The notes beneath the pieces were generated by a model. It was not told the origin of the DNA. It made no database searches and saw nothing but the letters and a program-made list of their open reading frames with translations. DNA of 64,000 nt from Peribacillus simplex (GTDB taxonomy: Bacteria; Bacillota; Bacilli; Bacillales; DSM-1321). Position numbers and translations under genes: made by a program. The stretch spans positions 1,330,001 to 1,394,000 of the forward strand of contig NZ_CP011008.1 of assembly GCF_001578185.1 (NCBI RefSeq), given 5' to 3'. Of this stretch, positions 38,756 to 39,936 are shown piece after piece (positions within the stretch are counted from its first letter, which is position 1; every line of letters starts with the position of its first letter).

Positions 38756-38788
38756 TAGATGGATAAAGTCTGCAAATGGACGATATCA

Positions 38789-38879
38789 TCCACTTCCCTC
38801 CGCCGGTATGAGCCGGTTCAGGTTCAAAGGGTCCGGAACTAATTCCATCTCAGTCTAAAAAAAGACTCCCCTAGTGGTG
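38789..38879 (-). ncRNA. TPP (THI-element) riboswitch
   Basis: Read on the minus strand, the element shows ACTAGGGGAGTC, CTGAGATGG, ACCCTTTGAACCTGA and the closing ACCGGCG-AGGGAAGTGG, the universal TPP aptamer core. High TPP should favour the terminator at 38726 and shut off tenA-thiW-thiD-thiM-thiE. Confidence 0.97.
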
Positions 38880-39041
38880 TGAATTGTATGTAATTACTGA
38901 CATCATATCAGAAAGACAAGAAAATGCAACCCACATTTGAAAGGGGAAATCCATTTATGGCAAGTGGAAAAGGAAGAACCAGGTAATTGACTTTTGATGT
39001 TTATTGGGATAAAATCATTTCTACATCATTTATATATTGAA

Positions 39042-39147
39042 TTCTTATCCAGAGAGGTGGAGGGACTTGGCCCAAAGAAACCTCGGCAGCAGACCCATTT
39101 TGGGAACTGTGCTAAATCCAACAAGCATTTGCTTGGAAGATAAGAAG
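39042..39147 (+). ncRNA. SAM-I (S-box) riboswitch
   Basis: The P1 arms are TTCTTATC (39042) and GATAAGAA (39139). The conserved AGAGAGGTGGAGGGA, the GGCCCAAAGAAACCTCGGCAGC kink-turn region (in part), the GGAACTGTGCTAAATCC core and the final hairpin are all present. It has its own terminator at 39165-39200. No methionine, cysteine or SAM gene follows; the next gene is a 62-aa FbpA-like protein 176 bases on. Confidence 0.97.
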
Positions 39148-39164
39148 AGCCGTACGGACACTGT

Positions 39165-39200
39165 AAGCCTCTTCTTGAATTAGAAGAGGCTTTTATTTTT
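39165..39200 (+). terminator. Expression-platform terminator of the SAM riboswitch
   Basis: AAGCCTCTTCT pairs perfectly with AGAAGAGGCTT around TGAATT, followed by TTATTTTT. Confidence 0.88.
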
Positions 39201-39323
39201 GCGGAATAACGTTTAGTGGCATACTAGAAAAGGTATATATAATTTGGTGAAATCAAACCGGTTAATACAGTTTAGCTCAACTAGAAGCGGGCTCTATGAT
39301 GACTAGGAAAGGAGCCATTTACA

Positions 39324-39511
39324 TGGCAGAATTATTTAAGAGGATTGAACAGAGGAAGGCAATGCTTATTGAAGAGTTATTGGCCAATGGAGTATACAAA
39401 ACCTCTGATGAAAGGCACCTTTATGATGCCCCGTTAAAAGTACTTGAAAATGAATATAAGATTGTAATAAATAGACCAAATAACGAGTCTCCTTCGGAAT
39501 GGATGACATAG
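39324..39511 (+). CDS. FbpA-like small protein (Fur-regulated basic protein family)
   Basis: 62 aa from ATG 39324 after AAAGGAGCC. FKRIEQRKAMLIEELLANGVYKTSD then LYDAPLKVLENEYKIV matches the small FbpA domain, whose B. subtilis member helps the iron-sparing sRNA FsrA. Upstream TATAAT near 39235 may be its own promoter. No clear Fur box was seen. It also stands just downstream of the SAM riboswitch terminator. Confidence 0.7.
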
Positions 39512-39550: not shown

Positions 39551-39590
39551 TAAGCATTCGCAGTCTATACTTGTGGATGCTTTTTTTATT
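39551..39590 (+). terminator. Rho-independent terminator
   Basis: AAGCATTC pairs with GGATGCTT (one G-U pair), followed by TTTTTATTTG. Confidence 0.75.
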
Positions 39591-39762
39591 TGTGTTTATA
39601 TAGGGGATGACACAATATATACATATTCAGAAAATGAAATAGGCTTTTTATCACATTTAAATAGTAAAATTACACATTTAATTTCAAATAAATAGTTGAT
39701 TTTAACTATAAGTTTCATTATGATGAAGGTGTAAAAAAATTGAATAAATGGGAGGTGGCTTG

Positions 39763-39936
39763 ATGATTTGCCAGAAGGTAACTGTAGAAAAAGTAGAAGA
39801 GAAGAGACAAGAAATGATTAAATTGGCGGCAATTTATGGTTTAACAAGTCTTCTAACTGTTCAAGCAAGCCAAGAATTGGATACGCTGTTGAATGCATTA
39901 ACAAATAAAAGAGATTCTGAATATTTTTCCCTTTAA
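39763..39936 (+). CDS. Spo0E family sporulation aspartyl phosphatase
   Basis: 57 aa. KVEEKRQEMIKLAAIYGLTS followed by SQELDTLLNAL is the full Spo0E signature; SQELD carries the acidic residue needed to dephosphorylate Spo0A~P. It would delay sporulation. ATG 39763 follows GGGAGGTGG. Stands alone between terminators. Confidence 0.88.
   Translation: MICQKVTVEKVEEKRQEMIKLAAIYGLTSLLTVQASQELDTLLNALTNKRDSEYFSL

Follow-up and report, generated by a model that had tools for sequence, protein, structure and literature searches.

At this locus a SAM-I (S-box) riboswitch leader is followed on the same strand by a small gene of the PF13076 family. It lies in a 64,000-nucleotide stretch of the Peribacillus simplex genome, which was analysed as a whole and is referred to here as the window. 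The features are, by position in the window:

38987-39015, plus strand: probable sigma-A promoter for the leader, TTGACT-N17-TAAAAT (10/12 consensus matches)
39042-39146, plus strand: SAM-I (S-box) riboswitch aptamer (RF00162, 88.9 bits)
39142-39176, plus strand: predicted antiterminator, AAGAAGAG (from 39142) paired with CTCTTCTT of the terminator 5' arm (leader folding)
39165-39192, plus strand: intrinsic terminator of 11 pairs, then TTATTTTT (terminator search and folding)
39211-39243, plus strand: promoter-like site, SigB-type GTTTAG-N14-AGGTAT (39211-39236) overlapped by sigma-A-like GTGGCA-N16-TATAAT (39216-39243) (motif scoring and conservation)
39323-39511, plus strand: gene for a 62-aa PF13076 (Fur_reg_FbpA) protein, most likely the riboswitch target (PF13076 match, pN/pS)
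39552-39582, plus strand: terminator-like site after the PF13076 gene (terminator search)

The aptamer is intact and matches RF00162 over its full length (1-108), well above the gathering score of 44.4 (E 8.4e-20, Rfam). A T-rich tail directly follows the terminator, and the full S-box aptamer with terminator described in an earlier sequence-only reading of this DNA is thus confirmed. The terminator arms are mostly kept in the alignment of the genus loci, 28 of 30 of which carry TTGAC within the 72 bases before the S-box. Folding of the whole leader yielded P1 and the terminator; when the leader was cut before the terminator 3' arm, P1 was broken and the AAGAAGAG/CTCTTCTT pair formed. The antiterminator bases otherwise belong to P1 and to the terminator, so the predicted structures are mutually exclusive. 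By prediction, this expression platform is that of textbook S-box attenuation, and it shares with the S-box regulon of Bacillota the aptamer, the P1/antiterminator/terminator logic and an upstream promoter. The usual targets of that regulon are methionine, cysteine, SAM or transport genes, whereas the target here is a small PF13076 protein. Fifteen S-boxes are present in the genome, and the 14 outside the window mostly precede sulfur-linked or transport genes. The S-box of the window is unusual in gene type, not in build.

After the leader, the first ORF preceded by a ribosome-binding site is the 62-aa gene, whose product scores 42.3 bits against PF13076 (cut-off 22), in keeping with its first description as FbpA-like. 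Its pN/pS of 0.07-0.20 against eight relatives indicates coding constraint. The protein, with 9 K/R against 11 D/E, is not basic. A three-helix structure was predicted with modest confidence (pLDDT 74), no PDB match was found at E 0.001 or better, and NCBIfam gave two weak single-member matches only. Relatives of the protein were absent from phage and plasmid collections (tblastn, E 0.001); 27 plasmid records match DNA of the region, and in the one inspected the match precedes methionine synthase. The spacing of 95 bases first given for the region had to be revised, since the end of the terminator lies 45 bases from TATAAT and 130 bases from the ATG, and the end of the aptamer 176 bases from the ATG. 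The PF13076 unit looks monocistronic because the terminator-like site at 39552-39582 follows the gene. Further downstream come a Spo0E-like ORF and then a GNAT acetyltransferase on the other strand, which agrees with the earlier remark that no sulfur-pathway gene follows. The Spo0E-like ORF (39748-39936, plus strand) follows the PF13076 gene in most, not all, genus loci. Kinship between the two neighbouring proteins is not claimed, a profile comparison having returned 17.6% probability over 19 columns.

The arrangement of S-box and PF13076 gene is conserved within the genus. A DNA search covered 61 genomes (the window's own and 60 others), 35 of which belong to the same genus. Besides the window, 29 same-genus loci were recovered, and in 29 of 29 a PF13076-like ORF stands after the S-box. 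With G023, which has the pair, and G027, which has it with another paralogue and whose best match to the window gene (L076) is without an S-box, the arrangement is found in 31 of 35 same-genus genomes. RF00162 exceeded its gathering score in all 12 loci run against Rfam (L017, L021, L031, L032, L037 and L039-L045), and PF13076 matched all 12 members of alignment A1, which comprises the window and 11 genus loci. Among the listed ORFs of at least 50 aa at 30 genus loci, the window included, none between the S-box and the PF13076 ORF was met-like by eye, which argues against the proposal that the gene of this riboswitch had been deleted. The window gene had no match in four genomes of the genus (G002, G003, G018 and G032); in the three of these that were inspected, the S-box that matched best stands before an ORF resembling methionine synthase by eye. 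In the other genus of the family (g2), the unit was absent from all three sampled genomes, G036 and G242 being without a gene match and G107 having a match (L163) without an S-box. Pieces of a group II intron lie upstream of the S-box unit in L039/L062.

The pairing also extends far beyond the genus. With A1 as query, a search through 397 genomes sampled evenly across the order gave matches in at least 162. We sampled 94 distinct PF13076-type loci from outside the genus, taken from the best matches downwards with some close relatives skipped, together with L167 from within it. A strong S-box was defined as a match to the S-box model of at least 83 bits, upstream on the same strand and within 450 bases. 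Such an S-box precedes 24 of the 94 loci and L167, and Rfam agreed for 23 of the 23 that were run among these 25 (L101 and L102 were left out). The 24 loci belong to families f11, f15, f20, f21, f22, f23, f26, f28, f41, f43, f46 and f47, so that the pairing spans 13 families of the order, the window's own and 12 further ones. Chance would be expected to supply about 0.06 S-boxes per 94 loci (from 15 S-boxes in 5.5 Mb), and in control regions within the same 450-base limit, either downstream or on the opposite strand, a single S-box was found, before a metN-like ORF at L077. Together with the genus counts, these results leave no ground for calling the S-box an orphan. The remaining 70 of the 94 loci lack a strong S-box, and the PF13076 domain is therefore not tied to SAM alone.

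At the 24 non-genus loci, 67-159 bases separate the end of the nearest S-box from the domain match. The PF13076 gene is preceded by two tandem S-boxes at L077 and L090; at L090 the nearest is the second one (64.8 bits), with a 109.3-bit S-box further up. L077 has four S-boxes within about 1 kb, and tandem S-boxes before ABC-transport-type genes were seen in other genomes too (L177, L178 and L179). PF13076 matched every one of the 28 proteins in alignment A3, of which 27 have a strong S-box and the remaining one, from L113, has a weak one. L113 was not counted as an S-box locus, since its match reaches 29.7 bits and identical proteins occur without an S-box in L100 and L103. On a tree of 103 rows, in which L113 was labelled as S-box, the label changes 12 times against 27 in shuffles, with 0 of 500 shuffles as low; this tree has few columns and most of its forks are open, and it does not fix the number of S-box origins. 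A C-terminal HPH...SIHW is found in 11 of the 32 rows labelled S-box, and HPH in 1 of the 71 other rows. By eye, no metabolic partner was evident downstream of the listed S-box-linked copies, the f21 loci excepted.

Elsewhere in the window's own genome (L046/L231; C1, about 4361700-4362150, minus strand), two PF13076-like ORFs stand in a row behind a leader that differs from that of the window and has a terminator-like hairpin. There was no Rfam match in L046, and we suspect a site of the cysteine-repressor type. The second ORF ends in HPH...SIHW.

Since the S-box/PF13076 pair is so widely conserved, an ordinary cis-acting, SAM-repressed leader is the most likely reading of the locus. We are confident that the S-box would control the PF13076 gene in cis, and very nearly as confident that it would act as a working SAM-I riboswitch that turns this gene off when SAM is plentiful. 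With SAM bound, P1 would hold and the terminator would form; with SAM scarce, the antiterminator would form and the 62-aa protein would be made.

A second input may enter between the terminator and the gene. SigB promoters have a consensus of the GTTTAA/GGGTAT type, for which, in the excerpted text of one study, a spacer of 14 appears optimal (PMC9847131). The pattern scored here was GTTTAA, a spacer of about 14 and GGGTAT, which the window site matches in 10 of 12 positions at N14, with p 0.07 for this site by itself. Sites matching 10 or 11 of the 12 positions at N14 occur in 27 of 30 genus loci (absent in L031, L037 and L038). In 26 of these 27 the site starts 77-123 bases upstream of the ATG, and in L044 this distance is 302 bases. 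The weight of this site lies in its conservation, because the single-locus p is only 0.00-0.15, among loci that are related to each other. The genome also has a sigB gene, by a match above the NCBIfam cut-off. The separate promoter proposed earlier from a TATAAT near 39235 holds in so far as TATAAT is found at 39238-39243, but the site is better read as SigB-like. A plain sigma-A reading was not retained, as TATAAT is confined to close relatives and GTTT-N14-GGTAT is wider; both may work. SigB input to the PF13076 gene is somewhat favoured on this evidence, and through a SigB-like promoter past the terminator, expression in this genus probably escapes the switch under general stress. Given this likely internal promoter, SAM control may be partial there.

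The main hint to a methionine role of the protein comes from family f21, in which the domain lies behind a switch of the same kind and is either joined to MsrA or placed directly before it. MsrA returns methionine sulfoxide to methionine. The fusion was identified in L171 (Pfam, run on this fusion only), and at L109 about 7 bases separate the PF13076 gene from the msrA start downstream of it. Counting open frames that align along the L171 fusion from query residue 1-7 onward at 68-100% identity, the PF13076-MsrA fusion is present in 14 of 15 f21 genomes, and in the remaining one the PF13076 gene adjoins msrA. An S-box precedes the PF13076 and MsrA unit in 15 of 15, and none was found at the 8 other MsrA loci of f21 searched. 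There is precedent for msrA in a methionine regulon, because in Shewanella it is controlled by MetJ, not via a riboswitch, according to the part of that study consulted (PMC4239095). The fusion was seen in a single family, distant from the window. It suggests that the protein acts in methionine supply or repair, and it offers a testable lead to PF13076 function. For the PF13076 protein of the window, we put a role in methionine metabolism or protection at even chances; it might help methionine or SAM supply or use in starvation.

FbpA of Bacillus subtilis is of similar size and shares the PF13076 domain, and the sequence-only reading had considered that SAM level is linked here to an iron-sparing protein. 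The SAM part of that proposal is supported by the conserved pairing, but its iron part is weak. In B. subtilis, FbpA-C support the small RNA FsrA and are postulated to be RNA chaperones, according to two papers (PMC8464778, PMC12871923), and the window product could likewise work with an FsrA-like small RNA. For FbpA-C themselves, RNA binding still lacks confirmation, and their chaperone role is a postulate without proof (PMC8464778). FbpA is moreover Fur-regulated and basic, whereas the window protein is acidic, led by an S-box and separate from the genome's Fur-box copy. Fur boxes were scored with a 19-mer that we take to be the consensus. The best site upstream of the window gene by this 19-mer reached 10/19, no better than shuffles, whereas another PF13076 gene of the same genome (L048) has a Fur-like box of 14/19 (p 0.025), with an ORF after it that by eye resembles FbpB. 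Scoring was extended to 94 loci, of which 25, counting L167, have an S-box and 69 have none, with L113 and L166 left out; Fur-like sites of at least 16/19 occurred in 9 of the 69 and in 0 of the 25, a trend that is not significant alone (Fisher p 0.11). Since the window gene lacks a Fur box and its product is not basic, 'FbpA' or 'iron sparing' is here a name by domain only, and we consider the wiring of SAM to an iron-sparing protein unlikely. On a broader reading, to which we give less than even odds, PF13076 proteins could be small starvation-response proteins whose input was swapped in evolution, iron through Fur in some and SAM through the S-box in others, with MsrA joined in f21. The S-box copies would then mount a methionine- or SAM-sparing response, a counterpart of the iron-sparing response.

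In Listeria, SreA and SreB are terminated SAM riboswitches that act in trans as small RNAs. Were the terminated leader itself the product here, it would likewise be made at high SAM, and the nearby gene would be read from its own promoter; the strong terminator, the probable internal promoter after it and the 130-base gap from terminator to ATG would all suit this. Yet in 13 families the S-box accompanies a PF13076 gene, the gap outside the genus is usually shorter, with little room for a second promoter, and in the three inspected gene-less genomes of the genus the best-matching S-boxes belong to other genes. SreA and SreB have targets in trans, whereas the window leader has a conserved gene in cis. 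We regard a trans-acting RNA as very improbable; the evidence does not need a trans role, and cis and trans roles are not exclusive. A relic that once served a lost methionine gene, with the PF13076 gene as chance neighbour, would fit the lack of a following sulfur-pathway gene and the company kept by the genome's other 14 S-boxes, but an intact aptamer, the recurrence of the pairing in 12 further families and the lack of an intervening met-like ORF at the 30 genus loci make it extremely improbable, and the conserved pair leads us to reject the orphan reading and to treat the relic as close to refuted.

The proposed cis-acting, SAM-repressed leader has partial parallels in published work. In Bacillus methanolicus, RNA-seq 5' ends and Rfam placed SAM riboswitch leaders before genes of 'unknown function', which resembles the S-box found here before an uncharacterised gene (PMC4342826). 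Various Bacillales genes under SAM riboswitches are described as probably acting in cysteine/methionine metabolism or transport, and a PF13076-type gene is not named in the seen portion of that account (PMC3766115). A literature search that left RegPrecise, supplements and most subscription papers outside its scope returned nothing linking a SAM riboswitch with FbpA, nothing linking a Fur-regulated basic protein with a riboswitch or naming PF13076, and nothing on a SAM riboswitch with methionine sulfoxide reductase in Bacillus. With this locus, the SAM riboswitch regulon would gain a widespread family of small proteins that is uncharacterised, and the occurrence of SAM-controlled PF13076 copies suggests that the family's part in nutrient stress is broader than iron.

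On the other side of the S-box, a TPP aptamer (38778-38882, minus strand; 83.6 bits, Rfam) lies 159 bases away, matching the back-to-back TPP riboswitch some 160 bases off that had been reported earlier. Of the 12 distinct genus loci scanned, six (L037, L039 and L041-L044) have the S-box/PF13076 unit but no TPP aptamer in the roughly 1.5 kb covered there, and the back-to-back layout is therefore incidental; longer copies of two of these loci (L061 and L062) are also without one. Two TPP aptamers in a row were observed on the tenA side in L031, L040 and L045.
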